Assembly: GCA_002298695.1 (NCBI GenBank)
Contig: DBLB01000070.1
Coordinates: 1-13,384, forward strand
Origin: Clostridiales bacterium UBA735
Lineage (GTDB): Bacteria; Bacillota; Clostridia; Oscillospirales; Oscillospiraceae
Direction of reading: 5' to 3'
DNA length: 13,384 nt
Shown here: piece by piece, positions 330 to 13,384 of the stretch
Layout of the letters: each line of letters begins with the position of its first letter
How positions within the stretch are numbered: the first letter of the stretch is position 1
The notes under the pieces: generated by a model
What the model was told of the DNA's origin: nothing
What the model saw: only the letters and a program-made list of their open reading frames with translations
Database searches by the model: none
Translations under genes and position numbers: made by a program

Positions 330-359
330 GCGGCGATCGACAGGATCGCCGCTTTTTTT
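330..359 (+). terminator. Rho-independent terminator, palindromic repeat copy 2
   Basis: GCGGCGATC at 330-338 pairs with GATCGCCGC at 344-352 (loop GACAG) and is followed at once by seven Ts (353-359). This is a standard intrinsic terminator for rightward transcription and probably ends the ligA transcription unit. The hairpin is the second copy of the one at 140-164. Confidence 0.8.
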
Positions 360-434
360 GCACGTTTTTCGCGGTGGATTCATAGAGTGATGCAGGGTAA
401 AAACCCAGTCGAATGACGAAAGGAGACACATACC

Positions 435-902
435 TTGAACCAGACTATGAACTACGAGGGACAGGAGACGCAGGCTGCAGCCTGTGAGGCCGGACAGGGG
501 AAACTCCCTGCCTGTGCGCCGCTGGCCAATCCCTATGTGCCGTTTCAGCCGGAAGCGCCGGAGCGGTATCAGCCGAACTGCGCGATGATCCGCGGAACGC
601 TGTTTCCGGGACTGGATCTGCCGCTGTCCGGTCAGGAAAATACGGCAGAGCTGTCTCAGACGGCGCGTCACACATTACAGGAATACGCCTTTGCAATCAA
701 TGAACTTGGTCTCTATCTTGACACCCACCGCAGCGATACGGAGGCTGTGGAGCTTTATAATCAGTACGTCGAGCTCTATGAGCACCAATTGCAGCAATTT
801 GAGCAGGACGGCGGATTTCTGACGCAGATGGAGTCCGCCGGAGACGGTACCTACCGCTGGCCGGATGAACCGTGGCCGTGGGATTACGAGCAGGAGGGCT
901 GA
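435..902 (+). CDS. cotJA-cotJB: Spore coat CotJA-CotJB fusion protein
   Basis: This 155-residue protein carries both CotJA and CotJB signatures in one chain. Residues 34-64 contain the CotJA core (YVPFQ, then YQPNCAMIRGTLFPGLDLPL). Residues 81-150 match CotJB: LQEYAFAINELGLYLDTH, an acidic helix, and the C-terminal WPDEPWPWDYEQEG. In Bacillus subtilis these are separate genes of about 80-90 codons in the cotJABC operon, made in the mother cell under sigma-E; the products join the spore coat. The two parts here share one frame with no internal stop. The TTG start is chosen because AAAGGAG ends 10 nt upstream; an ATG four codons later sits too far from it. cotJC follows 4 nt after the stop. A sigma-E promoter was looked for in 360-430 but none is convincing. 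Confidence 0.85.
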   Translation: MNQTMNYEGQETQAAACEAGQGKLPACAPLANPYVPFQPEAPERYQPNCAMIRGTLFPGLDLPLSGQENTAELSQTARHTLQEYAFAINELGLYLDTHRSDTEAVELYNQYVELYEHQLQQFEQDGGFLTQMESAGDGTYRWPDEPWPWDYEQEG

Positions 903-906
903 GAGA

Positions 907-1020
907 ATGTTTGTATATGAAAAGAAATTGCAGTATCCGGTCCGGATCGCGAACGTCAACCCGAAGCTGGCGGCGATTGTAATCAGCCAGTATGGTGGGC
1001 CATACTCCATCTTACTATGA
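907..1020 (+). pseudogene. cotJC: cotJC (spore coat manganese-catalase-like), 5' fragment cut by prophage insertion
   Basis: The ATG at 907 follows AGGAGGG by 8 nt. The translation begins MFVYEKKLQYPVRI and continues VNPKLAAIVISQYGGP, the N-terminus of CotJC, a ferritin-like manganese-catalase family coat protein of about 190 residues. In the family, QYGG(P/A) is followed by a conserved GELxAAxRYLxQRY-type stretch. Here the frame instead runs into YSILL and a TGA at 1018-1020. Homology is lost exactly at the palindrome 989-1006, next to a serine integrase gene. The rest of cotJC should lie beyond the right end of the prophage. The gene is non-functional unless the prophage is excised, as happens for sigK with the skin element of B. 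subtilis; excision here is inference. Confidence 0.85.
989..1006. other. Putative attachment site attL (host cotJC / prophage junction)
   Basis: AGTATGGTGGGCCATACT is an imperfect palindrome with 7-bp arms (AGTATGG/CCATACT) around TGGG. It sits where CotJC homology ends and 15 bp before the end of the integrase gene. Large serine integrases use imperfectly symmetric att sites with a central dinucleotide crossover, which this fits. The precise crossover bases cannot be fixed without attR or an uninterrupted cotJC from a related strain. Confidence 0.6.
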
Positions 1021-1021
1021 T

Positions 1022-2467
1022 TCAGAGCGTGAGCTTATAGGAGACCGACAGGAGCATCCGGGATTTATCGAAGGTGCAGCGGTCAATGATGGTCATGGCG
1101 GACTCGTATTTCTGGGCAATGGAGGCGGTGGGGCTGCGGAGCGTTTCGAGAACGGCGGCGATGGCCCGGCGGAGCAGCGCGGCGGTATCGACAGCGGGGA
1201 CGGAGACGGCGGAGGCGATCTGCGCGTCGAGGGCGTCCAGCTGCACCTGCATCTGCTGCCGGGCGGCTTTGTAGCTCTCCAGGGTCTCGATGCCGTCCAG
1301 ATACGAGTCGCGCAGGCGCTCCATGCGGGCGGCAAGGCGGGCGCGCTGCTGCCGGAGCGGCTGTGCCGTTGGAGCGGGCTGCGCGGTCCGCACAGCGCAG
1401 GAGAGCGATTCGGCGAAGGTCAGGTCGTGCTGGAGCTGCGCAAGGAAGGATTCTTCCAGCAGCTCGACGGCGACATGCTGGGCGGTCGTGCAGCGGCCGC
1501 GGACGAAGTTGTTGCACTTCATGAAATGCGGATTCGACCAGATGAGCGTCGCGCCGCAGGTCGGGCAGCGGACGATACCGCACAGCCAATGCTTGCGCTC
1601 GGAAGATGGTTTTCCGTAACGCTTATAGGATTTTTTCAGCTCGGCGCAGCGGGTCTGCGCCGCTTCCCATGTTTCGGCGTCAATGATCGGTTCGTGCTGT
1701 GCATCGGCGATGATGCTGTCCTCGTTCCTGAAATTCCGGCGCGTCCTGCCGGTCGGCGTCCAGCGGAGCTTGCCGAGGTAGACGGGGTTATTCAGGATAT
1801 AATCAATGGTGCGGTTTTCAAACGGATTGCCGCGATGCGTGCGGACGCCCCGCGTGGACAAGTCCTTCGCAATGGCGAACATGGCATCCCCGGCGATGAA
1901 GCGGCGGAAGATCTCCCGGACGACTTCGGCTTCCTCCGGCACGATGACGAGGCGGCGGTCTTCGGCGCGGTAGCCGAAGGCGGGCGTGGCTTGCAGGCTG
2001 CCCTTCTTTGCGTTGACCGTCATGGAGCGCTTTACCTCTTCGGACAGGCGGATGGAATAAAATTCGTCCATCCACTCGATGATGCGCTCGATCAGGCTGC
2101 CGAAGGGACCGGCGGTCAGCGGTTCGGAGACGGAGACGACATCGACCCTGCATTTGCTGCGCAGGATGGATTTATAGAAAATGGATTCCTCCTGATTGCG
2201 GGCGAAGCGGGAAAATTTCCAGACGATGATGACGTCGAACGGATGCGACGGGTCTTTGGCGGCGGCGATCATCTGCTGGAAGCCGGGGCGCTTTTCTGCG
2301 GCGCGGCCGGAAATGCCGTCGTCGTGGAAGATGTATTCCGCCGGCAGGAGCAGATCGTTCTTTGCGGCGTATTCCCGGATCTTCTCCATCTGGGAATCCG
2401 GGGACAGCTCCATCTGGTCGTCGGTCGAGACGCGGATATAGGCCGCGGCCATGCGGAGATCAGACAT
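1022..2467 (-). CDS. Large serine recombinase (phage integrase)
   Basis: This 481-residue protein has the full large-serine-recombinase layout. The N-terminal resolvase domain carries the nucleophile Ser14 in YIRVSTDDQ, with Arg12 and the KFSRFAR motif (84-90) supplying active-site arginines. The recombinase domain spans about 155-275. A zinc ribbon follows (Cys301, Cys304, Cys318, Cys326), and a coiled coil runs about 365-415. Such enzymes join attP to attB and, with a directionality factor, excise the element. The ATG at 2467 is chosen because AGGAGG lies 8 nt upstream; a TTG two codons earlier is only 2 nt from it. The gene's 3' end is 15 bp from the attL palindrome, the usual place for an integrase. 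Its start faces hicAB, transcribed the other way. No directionality factor is recognisable in the window. Confidence 0.95.
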   Translation of the reverse strand: MSDLRMAAAYIRVSTDDQMELSPDSQMEKIREYAAKNDLLLPAEYIFHDDGISGRAAEKRPGFQQMIAAAKDPSHPFDVIIVWKFSRFARNQEESIFYKSILRSKCRVDVVSVSEPLTAGPFGSLIERIIEWMDEFYSIRLSEEVKRSMTVNAKKGSLQATPAFGYRAEDRRLVIVPEEAEVVREIFRRFIAGDAMFAIAKDLSTRGVRTHRGNPFENRTIDYILNNPVYLGKLRWTPTGRTRRNFRNEDSIIADAQHEPIIDAETWEAAQTRCAELKKSYKRYGKPSSERKHWLCGIVRCPTCGATLIWSNPHFMKCNNFVRGRCTTAQHVAVELLEESFLAQLQHDLTFAESLSCAVRTAQPAPTAQPLRQQRARLAARMERLRDSYLDGIETLESYKAARQQMQVQLDALDAQIASAVSVPAVDTAALLRRAIAAVLETLRSPTASIAQKYESAMTIIDRCTFDKSRMLLSVSYKLTL

Positions 2468-2488: not shown

Positions 2489-2517
2489 AGTATAGAAAAA
2501 AGCCGGGGCGGTTGCAA
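2489..2517 (-). promoter_or_regulatory. Promoter of the integrase gene
   Basis: Read leftward, TTGCAA (2517-2512), a 17-nt spacer and TATACT (2494-2489) form a good sigma-A-type promoter, with the -10 about 22 bp from the integrase ATG. It looks like a housekeeping promoter rather than a sigma-E or sigma-K one. Confidence 0.65.
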
Positions 2518-2600: not shown

Positions 2601-2792
2601 ATGAAGTACAGCGAGCTATATCAAATATTACGGAAGGCAAGATGCAGGATCGAACGAGAGGGCGCTGGGCACACGATCTGGTTCAGCCCAATCACAGGGA
2701 GAAAGTTCACCGTACCGCGGCACAAGAATGAGGACGTTCCGAAGGGGACGCTGCATTCGATTTTGAAAGCGGCAGGCATTGAGGAGGTTTGA
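2601..2792 (+). CDS. hicA: HicA-type toxin (mRNA interferase)
   Basis: A 63-residue protein with the HicA fold pattern (double-stranded RNA-binding-like). It has the N-terminal helix YSELYQILRKA, the catalytic His24 in GAGHTIWF, and the VPRHKNEDVPKGTLHSILKAAGI tail typical of the family. HicA cleaves mRNA and stops translation unless bound by HicB. The length is normal for the family. GGAGGGGGAAGG lies directly upstream of the ATG. The stop is 2 nt before the hicB ATG, so the two are co-transcribed from the promoter at 2552. In a prophage the pair may stabilise the element or act against other phages; that role is inference. Confidence 0.92.
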   Translation: MKYSELYQILRKARCRIEREGAGHTIWFSPITGRKFTVPRHKNEDVPKGTLHSILKAAGIEEV

Positions 2793-2794
2793 CA

Positions 2795-3190
2795 ATGGCA
2801 AAGTATGTGTTCCCGGCTGTTTTCACAGAAGAGGAAGAGGGCTACAGTGTCCGGTTCCCGGATGTGGACGGATGCTTCACGAGCGGAAGCAGCTTGCAGG
2901 AGGCGTTGGAGATGGCAAGTGACGCGCTGTGTTTGATGCTGTACGATATGGAGGAGGACGGCGTAAAAATTCCGGCGGCCTCCAATGTGAACGATGTGCA
3001 GACGGAACCGGGGGAATTCGTTTCGCTGGTCGCCTGTGACACGCTCGAATACCGGAAACGGTACGGCGCAAAGGCTGTCAAAAAGACGCTGTCCATTCCG
3101 TCGTGGCTGAACGACGCGGCAGAGCGGGCAGGCGTGAATTTCTCGAACGTCTTGCAGGATGCGCTCAAGCAGCAGCTGCATATGGGATAG
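2795..3190 (+). CDS. hicB: HicB-type antitoxin
   Basis: A 131-residue antitoxin. Residues 1-60 form the HicB domain, a degenerate RNase-H-like fold (YVFPAVFTEEEEGYSVRFPDVDGCFTSG, then SLQEALEMASDAL). Residues about 92-128 (KKTLSIPSWLNDAAERAGVN and the following helix) look like a ribbon-helix-helix DNA-binding domain. The first part binds and inhibits HicA; the second probably represses the operon through the palindrome at 2558-2573. The ATG at 2795 is preferred to a TTG at 2789 because AGGAGG ends 7 nt before it. A terminator hairpin follows. Confidence 0.92.
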   Translation: MAKYVFPAVFTEEEEGYSVRFPDVDGCFTSGSSLQEALEMASDALCLMLYDMEEDGVKIPAASNVNDVQTEPGEFVSLVACDTLEYRKRYGAKAVKKTLSIPSWLNDAAERAGVNFSNVLQDALKQQLHMG

Positions 3191-3239: not shown

Positions 3240-3515
3240 TCAGAACAGGTCGCTGTGTGTGCCGGTGCGATAGAGCGTCAGAATCAGGATTTCTTCGGTG
3301 ATCTTATAGACGAGCAGCCAGTCCGGCTTGATGTGACATTCCCGGTAGCCGGTATAATTGCCGCCGAGAGAATGATCGCGGTATTCCGGCGGGAGCGTTA
3401 CGCCGTCTGCAAGAAGCTGAACGACTTCTTTCAGACAGGTCATATCACAGCCACGCTTGACCGCCAGTTTGTAGTCTCGCTTGAATTGGGTGGTTCGTTC
3501 AATTTCGTATTTCAT
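3240..3515 (-). CDS. yafQ: YafQ-family mRNA interferase toxin (RelE/ParE superfamily)
   Basis: A 91-residue protein with the YafQ pattern: basic N-terminal helices, then LPPEYRDHSLGG, YRECHIKPDWLLVYK and the ending LYRTGTHSDLF. The histidines that matter in Escherichia coli YafQ have equivalents here (His48, His61 and His87, with Asp65). The toxin cleaves mRNA in the ribosomal A site. Its ATG overlaps the dinJ stop as ATGA, with GGAGG 5 nt upstream inside dinJ, so translation is coupled and the antitoxin is made first. The gene runs leftward, against hicAB. Confidence 0.9.
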   Translation of the reverse strand: MKYEIERTTQFKRDYKLAVKRGCDMTCLKEVVQLLADGVTLPPEYRDHSLGGNYTGYRECHIKPDWLLVYKITEEILILTLYRTGTHSDLF

Positions 3516-3787
3516 TCGGCCTCCAAGTCCGCAAAGAGGTCATCCACAGAAGAAAAACGCTTTGCCTTCGGATCGGCCAGCATTGCGTCGCCCTCGGCCA
3601 GTGCGGCGCGGGTGGTTTCGTTCGGAACGTCGCGCTGCGGCGTGAAGGGGAAGCCGTGGACGTAAAGGCTCTGACGCAGGAAAACATTGACCGCCGTGGA
3701 AAGGTCAAGGCCGAGATCGGCGAAAAGCGCCTGCGCCTGCGGCTTGATGTCGGCATCGAGGGAAAGTGTGGTTGGAACTTTTGCCAT
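3512..3787 (-). CDS. dinJ: RelB/DinJ-family antitoxin
   Basis: A 91-residue protein. The N-terminal ribbon-helix-helix domain (TTLSLDADIKPQAQALFADL, then GLDLSTAVNVFLRQSL) is typical of RelB/DinJ. The acidic C-terminus, ending FSSVDDLFADLEAE, would wrap the toxin. It neutralises YafQ and represses its own promoter. The start ATG at 3787 has AAGGAG about 10 nt upstream. A consensus promoter (3810-3838) lies just ahead, with an imperfect palindrome around its -10 box (near 3803-3821) that could be the operator. Confidence 0.92.
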   Translation of the reverse strand: MAKVPTTLSLDADIKPQAQALFADLGLDLSTAVNVFLRQSLYVHGFPFTPQRDVPNETTRAALAEGDAMLADPKAKRFSSVDDLFADLEAE

Positions 3788-3847: not shown

Positions 3848-3884
3848 CACCGGGAGCGGGTCAACCGCTTCCGGTGATTTTTTT
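3848..3884. terminator. Terminator overlapping the repressor stop codon
   Basis: A 12-bp stem (3848-3859 with 3865-3876, one G-T pair) is flanked by seven Ts rightward (3878-3884) and by CTCTTTTTC leftward. The repressor's stop codon lies in its loop. It probably ends leftward repressor transcription and can also stop rightward readthrough. Confidence 0.75.
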
Positions 3885-4232
3885 CGCGTATTCGAGGATG
3901 CTGTCCCAGAACTCAGGGGGCATATCGAGGGCGGTGGCGATGCCGCGCTTGCGGGTGGATTCGTCGGCTTCGGCCAGCACGTCGTTGAACAGCATGGCCA
4001 TGCGCTCGTTCTCGCTGCGCTGGACGTACATCGGCTCCGTGCCGTCCCGCAGCCATGCGAGGGAGATGTTGAACTCCCGGCAAATGAGATTGACAAAAGC
4101 GTCGTTGGGTGTGGTCAGGCTTCCTTCGATGTTCGTAATAACACCGCGCGTCGCGCCGAGACGTTCGGCAAATGCGGTTTGTGACAAATGTTCAGATTTG
4201 CGGATGGCTTTGATCCGCTCGTTAATTGTCAT
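3861..4232 (-). CDS. Cro/CI-family phage repressor (XRE helix-turn-helix)
   Basis: A 123-residue protein. Residues 1-58 form an XRE helix-turn-helix domain: INERIKAIRKSEHLSQTAFAERLGATRGVITNIEGS, with SQTAFAERLG and TRGVITNIE as the two helices. The remainder is helical, with no visible autocleavage or peptidase motif. Its place next to divergent promoters with repeated operators marks it as the lysogeny repressor. The ATG at 4232 is chosen because GAGG lies 8 nt upstream; a GTG three codons earlier overlaps that site. With no cleavage domain visible, induction may depend on an antirepressor or another factor; that is inference. Confidence 0.88.
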   Translation of the reverse strand: MTINERIKAIRKSEHLSQTAFAERLGATRGVITNIEGSLTTPNDAFVNLICREFNISLAWLRDGTEPMYVQRSENERMAMLFNDVLAEADESTRKRGIATALDMPPEFWDSILEYAKKITGSG

Positions 4233-4251
4233 AGGTATCACCTCAAAATGC

Positions 4252-7040: not shown

Positions 7041-7050
7041 GGAGGAGATG

Positions 7051-7503
7051 ATGGGCGGACTGCGATTTGAGAGCATGGCGGACATGCCTGCCGGGATGCG
7101 GGACCTTTACGCAAGGAAAGTGCTGGCAGAAATGCCAGTGGAACAGACGAAGCCGGAGAAGAAGGCGGCAAAATATCAGAACCAGAAGGCGGAGCGCGGC
7201 GGCGTCCGCTTTGACAGCCAGAAGGAGGCGCGGCGGTATGACGAGCTGCTGCTGATGCTGCGGGCCGGGGAGATACGCGACCTGCGTTTGCAGCCGCAGT
7301 TCACCATTCAGGAATCCTATGTGACGGAGACCGGGGAGCGGGTCCGCGCGATCCGGTACACGGCGGACTTTTCCTACATCCGGGAGGTATCCGGCGAGAA
7401 GATCGTGGAGGACGTGAAGAGCGGGCCGACGCGGACGAAGGAATATCTGCGGAACCGGAAATTCATACGGTCGGTCTACGGGATCGACGTGCGGGAGGTT
7501 TGA
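7051..7503 (+). CDS. DUF1064 phage protein, PD-(D/E)XK nuclease-like
   Basis: A 150-residue protein matching the DUF1064 phage family. Residues 52-70 (VRFDSQKEARRYDELLLML) give the first helix with Glu59. QPQFTI is at 81-86, YTADFSYI carries Asp106, and IVEDVKS at 118-124 supplies the D/E-x-K pair. Together E, D, (D/E)xK fit a PD-(D/E)XK endonuclease fold, and a DNA nuclease or resolvase role in phage replication or recombination is the accepted guess; the specificity is unknown. AAGGAGG ends 5 nt before the ATG at 7051; the ATG at 7048 is an equally possible start one codon earlier. Confidence 0.85.
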   Translation: MGGLRFESMADMPAGMRDLYARKVLAEMPVEQTKPEKKAAKYQNQKAERGGVRFDSQKEARRYDELLLMLRAGEIRDLRLQPQFTIQESYVTETGERVRAIRYTADFSYIREVSGEKIVEDVKSGPTRTKEYLRNRKFIRSVYGIDVREV

Positions 7504-12069: not shown

Positions 12070-12843
12070 ATGCGCAGGATCAAGCAAAGGCTCTTCTGCG
12101 GCGCGGTTTGCGAGCAGATCGTATACAGCGTCCGGGACGGTGCGGACGTCAGGACGGCGAAGCCGAAAAAGCCGCGCTTTGAAAACGAGGAGGACCGGAG
12201 AGCGCACCGCGAGGCGATCAGCCGCCGGAAGAACGCGCAGCTCATCAATGCGAATTTTTCCCCGTCGTCGTTCTACTCGACGCTGACGTTTTCGCAGGAG
12301 GACGAGGTACATACCGTGGAGGAGTGCAAGCGGGAGCGGGACAACTACTGCCGCCGGATATTACGCAGATATCCGGCGGCGAAGGTCTATCTGGTCTACG
12401 GAAAGGGAAAGCACACGGGGCGGTTCCACCTGCATATGATCTCGGACGGCATGCCGGTGGAGGAGATCGGCAGGCTCTGGGGCCGGGGCAGCGTGCTCGA
12501 CTGCAAGCCGCTGCGCAGGCACAACTGGTACAAAAACGAGAGCGGGCAGCTCGTCGACCACGGGCAGGACTACACGGGGCTGGCGAACTACCTCTTTGAC
12601 CACTGGCGCGAGGAGTTCGGCGGGCACCGCTGGAAGGCAAGCCGGACCTGCCGGAGGCCGGAGGCGGAGACGCCGACCGAGGCCGTGCGCGAGTACAGCC
12701 CGAAGCGGCCGCCGGTGGCTCCGCGCGGGTATGTGCTGGTGGAGGCCAGGGCGACGAAGTACGGCTACCAGTATTATAAATATGTCCGGCTGCCGGAGAA
12801 GGAAGAACGGGAACACAAGCGGACGGAGCGCCGCTTAAATTGA
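12070..12843 (+). CDS. HUH rolling-circle replication initiator-like protein
   Basis: A 257-residue protein with the layout of a Rep_ORF2/G2P-type replication initiator. FYSTLTFS at 68-75 is Rep motif 1. RFHLHMIS at 118-125 contains the metal-binding HUH pair His120 and His122. YTGLANYLFDHW (168-179) supplies candidate nicking tyrosines Tyr168 and Tyr174. Such enzymes nick one strand and stay attached through tyrosine to start rolling-circle replication. AAAAGGAGA lies upstream of the ATG. It stands between pcfJ and the terminase, where a double-stranded phage usually has helicase loader genes. Whether it drives phage replication or is a captured plasmid gene is unclear; a relaxase is unlikely given the length. 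Confidence 0.82.
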   Translation: MRRIKQRLFCGAVCEQIVYSVRDGADVRTAKPKKPRFENEEDRRAHREAISRRKNAQLINANFSPSSFYSTLTFSQEDEVHTVEECKRERDNYCRRILRRYPAAKVYLVYGKGKHTGRFHLHMISDGMPVEEIGRLWGRGSVLDCKPLRRHNWYKNESGQLVDHGQDYTGLANYLFDHWREEFGGHRWKASRTCRRPEAETPTEAVREYSPKRPPVAPRGYVLVEARATKYGYQYYKYVRLPEKEEREHKRTERRLN

Positions 12844-13203: not shown

Positions 13204-13384
13204 ATGGGACGGAAACCGACATTCGCATCGGCAGAGGAAATGCAGGAGAAGATCGACGCGTATTTTGAAGGCTGTGAGGCGAAGCTGCTGCGGGACCGGA
13301 ACGGGGATCCGATGCTGAACAAAAACGGCGAACCGGTCTACATCGGCGGGAAGCCGCTGACGATGGCGGGGCTTGCGCTTGCGC
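13204..13384 (+). CDS. Terminase small subunit (3' end cut by window)
   Basis: The first 60 residues are visible and the frame is open to the window end. MGRKPTFASAEEMQEKIDAY, a helix that continues into CEAKLLRDRNGDPMLNKNGE, and PVYIGGKPLTMAGLALA match the N-terminal helix-turn-helix region of a common phage terminase small subunit family, which recognises DNA packaging sites and partners the large-subunit ATPase/nuclease. GGGAGGTGAT precedes the ATG. It opens the late packaging module, whose other genes are outside the window. A related DNA-packaging protein of the same family is the only real alternative. Confidence 0.85.
   Translation, partial: MGRKPTFASAEEMQEKIDAYFEGCEAKLLRDRNGDPMLNKNGEPVYIGGKPLTMAGLALA

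Follow-up and report, generated by a model that had tools for sequence, protein, structure and literature searches.

We analysed a stretch of 13,384 nucleotides (hereafter the window), whose left end is host chromosome and carries a cotJA-cotJB fusion upstream of cotJC (Table 1). In this cotJA-cotJB-cotJC operon context, cotJC was recognized by its match to PF05067, the Mn catalase family. Read from the start at 907, the match covers profile positions 1-32 of 284 (E 1.3e-7, above the cut-off). The first 32 residues of CotJC are encoded at 907-1002 and the homology ends there; the frame of this sporulation gene is cut after residue 32, at the att site. An earlier note had claimed that a prophage interrupts cotJC, and this was confirmed by the early stop of the match and by the phage with a serine integrase that lies beyond it. 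The order that the note described, a family-like start followed by a palindrome and the integrase, was also found, except that the integrase gene points its 3' end, not its start, towards cotJC. The window ends inside the phage and does not contain the 3' half of cotJC.

The promoter-like site ahead of the operon is one that we take to be of the mother-cell sigma type. A motif built on 68 cotJA upstream regions revealed a conserved CATAG-type promoter ahead of cotJA, and 60 of the 68 regions scored above 95% of the null when each was left out in turn.

Table 1. Features of the window, with strand and the evidence for each
Feature	Position	Strand	Evidence
cotJ operon promoter-like site, CAC ... 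CATAGAGTG	359..390	+	read from sequence
Fused CotJA-CotJB ORF	435..902	+	PF11007 E 2.3e-12, PF12652 E 9.5e-22
cotJC 5' part, putative crossover core included	907..998	+	PF05067 1-32/284; relatives break at same point
18-nt palindrome, a hybrid att site made of cotJC (left half) and phage attP (right half)	989..1006	.	relatives' junctions
Putative crossover dinucleotide GG	997..998	+	attL/attR comparison in relatives, applied by homology
Phage half-site of attL	999..1021	.	resembles relatives' element half-site
Large serine integrase, 483 aa	1022..2473	-	PF00239 and PF07508; phrog_95 integrase E 2e-107
Integrase promoter, sigma-A-like, TTGCAA-17-TATACT	2489..2517	-	consensus scan, 9 of 12
Phage-repressor-like HTH protein	3861..4241	-	PF01381, phrog_8
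Candidate recombination directionality factor, 67 aa	6221..6424	+ (opposite to integrase)	iterated HMM family
Phage Holliday-junction-resolvase-like/DUF1064 protein	7048..7503	+	phrog_190, PF06356
Phage replication initiation protein	12070..12843	+	phrog_3584 E 4e-36
Terminase small subunit, start only (window ends)	13204..13384	+	phrog_606 E 4.5e-5, PF16677

The large serine recombinase that adjoins the cotJC junction is the element's own site-specific recombinase. Its best two distinct NCBIfam relatives of interest are CcrB (E 1.3e-43), the cassette chromosome recombinase, and XisF (E 2.9e-29), the fdxN element recombinase. XisF acts in a differentiating cell. Membership in either family was rejected, since the scores were 149.5 bits against a curated cut-off of 900 for CcrB and 102.3 against 375 for XisF. 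Two toxin-antitoxin pairs, HicAB (2601-3190) and YafQ/RelB (3240-3787), lie immediately behind the integrase. The window holds a temperate-phage gene set of integrase, repressor and replication genes, with packaging represented by the partial terminase small subunit; a DUF3102 protein and a PcfJ-domain protein are also encoded in the phage part. Head and tail genes would be expected past the end of the window, whose sequence from the integrase onwards we read as a temperate phage's left arm.

The right end of this phage was not found through IMG/VR, a faecal phage record or 400 genomes of the family. The closest integrases in the protein collection share 84-91% identity (among the best 120 of 7787). 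These relatives were not reached as DNA in IMG/VR, where the best identity was 52% and the 21-mer at the window's junction had no match. The faecal phage record is collinear with about 12.0-13.3 kb of the window and carries no cotJC half. The search of the 400 genomes gave one close integrase (57%), likewise adjoining a cotJC 5' half.

The att site and its use by related integrases

To describe site use, we collected 100 integrase loci: 19 from IMG/VR, the best 80 of 552 from a one-genome-per-species profile search, and the window. They include near-identical pairs (L004/L005, L008/L009), and 8 with less than 150 bp after the integrase were unscorable. Most of this integrase clade uses the same site: among the 92 scorable loci of this set, a cotJC half broken at this codon adjoins the integrase in 75. 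The 3' half lies directly after the integrase on the same strand in 45 of the 92, and the 5' half lies after it on the opposite strand in 30, the window among them. No cotJC half follows the integrase in the other 17. Seven of these 17 (L003, L010, L011, L016, L018, L019, L084) carry, by eye, an unsplit palindromic attP, which suggests free or circular phage. In a related Lachnospiraceae integrase clade (L081, L091, L093, L097), the neighbour of the integrase is a different gene, of which only pieces are visible. They gave a weak match to SpoIID in L093 and L097 and a peptidoglycan-binding domain in L091. This target is possibly another sporulation-type gene.

The breakpoint in related loci is nearly constant. 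It falls in Gln-(Tyr or other residue)-Gly-Gly-Pro, in DNA GGN-GGN-CCN, with small variations, and half-sites of the same kind stand at both element ends in inverted order. In the window, the junction is the palindrome AGTATGG-TGGG-CCATACT. Taken alone, this palindrome is not rare: the window holds 34 equally self-complementary 18-mers, the palindrome itself counted, and perfect 7-nt arms with a 4-nt spacer occur at three further places. It gains its meaning from the relatives, in which these cotJC codons likewise border an element half-site of this kind.

The crossover point was approached by comparing attL with attR in 17 related genomes. Wobble-base differences flanking GG were found in 10 of the 17, and none contradicts a crossover at GG. 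They lie to the left of the second GG in two genomes (G003, G021), to the right in seven (G001, G002, G018, G024, G028, G030, G035) and on both sides in one (G036); the remaining seven show a difference on neither side. All 17 are consistent with an exchange within the second glycine codon, at its GG, provided that the crossover is common to all. A palindromic core dinucleotide, considered to account for the two orientations, was rejected because this comparison favours GG. Relative to int, the core of the unsplit attP reads by eye as GG or CC, a difference that would determine the orientation of the element.

On a quick tree of 73 site-A integrases, element orientation switched at least 19 times, and it differs even between near-identical integrases (L062, L065). 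The 5'-half label is spread over the tree nearly at random: it needed 23 changes, the shuffles averaged 24.9, and 121 of 500 shuffles needed no more than 23. The 3'-half label is less scattered, with 20 changes against 28.7 and none of 500 shuffles so low. These comparisons indicate that the conserved feature is the place of insertion, not its direction.

In silico rejoining of the split gene and selection on its halves

In B. subtilis, skin in sigK and SP-beta in spsM are removed by large serine recombinases in the mother cell, and the gene is restored. The explanation that we favour, at a probability of roughly 60%, is that the phage resides in cotJC at a fixed attB and is lifted out in the sporulating mother cell by its integrase and a small factor. 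On this account, the large serine integrase has placed a temperate phage in the 5' part of cotJC, at a fixed attB that encodes Gln-Tyr-Gly-Gly-Pro and has its core GG in the second glycine codon. Vegetative cells would keep the phage and a silent cotJC. The integrase, helped by a small directionality factor, would then excise the element precisely. Excision would take place in the mother cell during sporulation, where cotJC would be expressed and loss of the phage would not be inherited. Relatives without phage genes, which keep the integrase and the candidate directionality factor, would do the same with other cargo.

Both junctions were available in the 17 related genomes, with the two halves on one contig in 11 (inverted in G018) and on two contigs in 6. 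When the host flanks were joined in silico at GG, an open CotJC frame of 197-207 residues resulted in 13 of the 17. The other four rejoined frames run into a second cut site of the same gene; the far cotJC piece was found elsewhere in the genome for G020, G021 and G026, and was not found for G024. Cut sites in cotJC cluster at three places, the second near profile position 65 and the third near 150, and a different serine recombinase occupies the second site in several loci.

Ten loci (L002, L032, L037, L040, L041, L073, L076, L080, L083, L088) apparently have one cotJC with two tandem elements. The gene is cut again there about 33 codons downstream (between LLTDIGT and EE), with a second, different serine recombinase at the cut. 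In O. valericigenes (L101 1740-12114, genome G018), the integrase and cotJC3' are separated by about 10 kb from cotJA-cotJB-cotJC5', which is in inverted orientation. If this is not an artefact of assembly, recombination between the att sites would restore the operon by inverting the segment, not by excising it.

Most of the listed halves are open frames, as would be expected if the two halves worked as separate proteins or were joined at the RNA or protein level. We regard this as highly improbable, given that the 5' half encodes only about 32 residues and that three different cut sites exist.

We also searched with PF05067 75 genomes that contain integrases of the set described above, 63 of which carry a site-A element. 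No full-length match was found in 57 of the 63; among these 57, one match is frameshifted (G059) and one genome has no match at all (G053). The other six (G033, G043, G046, G047, G054, G057) have a full-length match, possibly a paralogue in some. The six full-length copies and the frameshifted Mn catalase of G059 weigh against the favoured explanation. Over all 75 genomes, nine have a full-length match and three have none.

A second survey sampled the Oscillospiraceae, to which O. valericigenes belongs, evenly with 120 genomes (requested completeness 90, with the values absent from the output). Counted by hand, 110 of the 120 have a match, and uninterrupted cotJC, which the earlier note had proposed to look for in relatives, is present at full length in 75 of the 110. 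The remaining 35 have pieces only; 7 of these 35 have a single piece, so that contig ends may account for some. A full-length copy stands beside a split or partial copy in four genomes (G098, G112, G159, G181). In G112, locus L128 (535-2454) is a 1.9-kb site-A remnant with a truncated integrase, and another full-length copy is present in the genome. Is this remnant decay where the gene is not needed?

The patchy occupancy in these 110 sampled genomes, the L128 remnant beside a full-length copy, and the unsplit attP, which points to usual phage excision, would suit an ordinary prophage in a dispensable gene. cotJC would then be a convenient conserved attB, lost in lysogens and restored only by induction or curing. 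We consider this unlikely, although it is the foremost competitor of developmental excision. It is opposed by the persistence of islands without phage genes in which the integrase frame stays open, and by strong purifying selection on the halves, at dS up to and beyond 1, in pairs of species that share an element.

This selection was estimated as NG86 dN/dS, values that are rough near saturation. One site-A element is common to three species (L036, L044, L046). Its L036 version includes a pilin-like gene (PF12892), together with an ORF that has no Pfam match and was taken by eye for an O-antigen ligase. The DNA identity of L036 with L044 is 71-79% in the element and 86-88% in the flanks; between L044 and L046, identity is 89% across element and cotJC. 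The shared element has diverged about as much as cotJC, or more. The dN/dS of the 32-codon 5' half is 0.040 (L036/L044), and the 3' halves of the three species gave 0.025, 0.026 and 0.017, at dS 0.4-1.1 for the halves. Their integrases gave dN/dS 0.09-0.16, with dS 1.9-2.5 in the two distant pairs and 0.33 in the near pair. Furthermore, the cotJC halves of O. valericigenes and O. ruminantium gave 0.015 and 0.024 at dS of about 1. At site B, the pair L134/L146, with collinear cargo, gave 0 and 0.024 at dS 2.3 and 1.0, and the pair L129/L130, with a recombinase and a pyrimidine-nucleoside phosphorylase, gave 0.074 and 0.084. A dead gene should approach a dN/dS of 1, so these low values argue for selection on the halves.

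Median pN/pS over all unsaturated pairs was 0.27 for A3, 0.245 for B3, 0.225 for B5 and 0.23 for intact copies. The 32-codon A5 half was higher (0.35), and the long halves resemble intact copies. Repeated loci were dropped from this count, as was L053 for a stop that sits on the element side of the junction.

Strong purifying selection on both halves in species that share a resident element suggests that their split cotJC is probably reassembled. For the phage-sized elements, repeated independent insertion into a cotJC that was whole until recently could also have occurred; for the collinear islands, common descent appears to be the simpler account. Site fidelity, frame and selection make a skin-like reading well supported for the family, with mother-cell timing as its predicted part. 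As the right junction lies outside the window, the reading is extended to the window by homology. The earlier note's proposal that the phage uses cotJC as skin uses sigK was supported in part, by site fidelity, by the halves in relatives, by in-frame rejoining in 13 of 17 genomes, by the 57 of 63 genomes without a full-length copy and by purifying selection; the sigma-A-like promoter of the integrase weighs the other way.

A candidate directionality factor and the possible timing of excision

Elements in cotJC range from whole prophages to islands of 3-10 kb with other cargo. Pseudoflavonifractor gallinarum has a 30-kb element in cotJC with terminase, portal, protease, tail and amidase genes, in the same orientation as in the window. 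We examined six complete small elements at site A, 3.7-9.8 kb in length, of which the O. ruminantium one is partly masked. Their cargo includes a polysaccharide deacetylase, a type III-like restriction-modification pair, a pilin-like gene and what by eye are esterase and MATE genes. At site B, the cargo is FeoB, a MATE protein or a nucleoside phosphorylase.

A family of small proteins of 60-90 aa, found by iterated HMM, recurs across these elements. It corresponds to no Pfam or NCBIfam family and has no PDB match under E 0.08; the member in the window has only a weak match to phrog_26314, of unknown function (E 0.0027). An AlphaFold model gave a hairpin and a helix (pLDDT 79). The gene lies on the strand opposite to the integrase in 46 of 46 hits in integrase-holding loci (41 distinct). 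It starts beside int in all six complete small site-A elements and about 2-7 kb away in larger ones. Retention beside int where phage genes are absent suggests that the small protein is a candidate recombination directionality factor. Among 55 site-A loci with at least 3 kb upstream, it was found in 28 and not found in 27, and the latter count against developmental excision by integrase and small factor.

The timing of excision was approached through promoters. The ordinary, sigma-A-like promoter of the window's integrase looks vegetative and counts against excision timed to sporulation; sporulation control would need to act elsewhere, for example on the directionality factor. In 18 of 41 cases, where 0.6 would be expected, the small protein has a CATAGGAC-like box ahead of it; the box was defined after inspection of the sequences and is absent ahead of the one in the window. 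With the full cotJ-promoter score, p<0.05 was reached in 4 of 13 elements with the small-protein gene beside int and in 7 of 28 others; in most cases, the search upstream of the small-protein gene revealed no full mother-cell promoter.

The same integrase promoter would suit continuous excision in a subpopulation (active lysogeny), in which cotJC is selected because only gene-bearing cells make good spores. Spontaneous circles are reported for phi027 in the available text of PMC11222575. We think such excision improbable, since islands without phage genes should be lost if they were excised before sporulation, yet related species share them. In favour of excision at sporulation, SpoIVA was found in 16 of the 16 tested genomes with split cotJC. 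A sigK-like gene is in two pieces in G020 (7 kb apart), G030 (15 kb) and G036 (two contigs); these may be skin elements in the same hosts, a tentative reading because no genome reached the curated sigK cut-off.

Known systems and a possible role of cotJC

Developmental excision from cotJC would resemble several described systems, as far as the available parts of the sources go. Like skin in sigK of B. subtilis and C. difficile, it would involve a serine recombinase element in a mother-cell sporulation gene that is restored by removal. In contrast to skin, the target here is a coat gene, and the element in the window is a phage with integrase, repressor and terminase genes. SP-beta in spsM of B. 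subtilis is likewise a whole temperate phage in a spore-envelope gene, with precise excision at sporulation according to the accessible text of PMC4191935; SprA/SprB are named in the title of a reference. Here the gene is another one, orientation varies, and elements without phage genes occur.

Intervening elements in sporulation genes are further described, in the text available, as gin in gerE (B. cereus), vfbin in spoVFB (B. weihenstephanensis) and yin in yabG (C. botulinum); gin, like the islands here, lacks phage genes. cotJC is not among these targets, and 'cotJ' is absent from the main text of PMC5595907 and PMC10747680. The prophage phi027 of C. difficile adjoins cotG, a CotJC homologue; in the available text, cotG is a 678-bp ORF downstream of attR, with no mention of a split. 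No report of cotJC as a target of a prophage or intervening element appeared in the available text of the literature searched, which included PMC5595907, PMC10747680, PMC10083194, PMC11222575 and PMC12122855, with most subscription journals and bioRxiv outside it.

A wider reading, which we put forward tentatively and hold somewhat less likely than not to prove correct in full, is that cotJC serves as a developmental docking gene in Clostridia, gut Oscillospiraceae among them. Phages and non-phage islands alike would be excised from the dying mother cell by serine integrases and a new family of small directionality factors. Elements would dock at three fixed sites, in either orientation and sometimes two at once, with restriction-modification, iron transport, nucleoside phosphorylase and a pilin-like surface protein as cargo. 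The cargo would be present in the germ line only, and a working coat gene in the soma only.

If this is true, programmed gene rebuilding at sporulation would be routine in a gut bacterial family, in which 35 of the 110 sampled genomes with a match lack a full-length cotJC, and not a curiosity of a few strains. It would explain the persistence of phages and cargo islands in a gene whose halves are still under selection, and it would supply a large clade of integrases with a family of candidate directionality factors. The named isolates Pseudoflavonifractor gallinarum and Oscillibacter ruminantium make the docking-gene reading testable. To call such coat genes broken would then be misleading.
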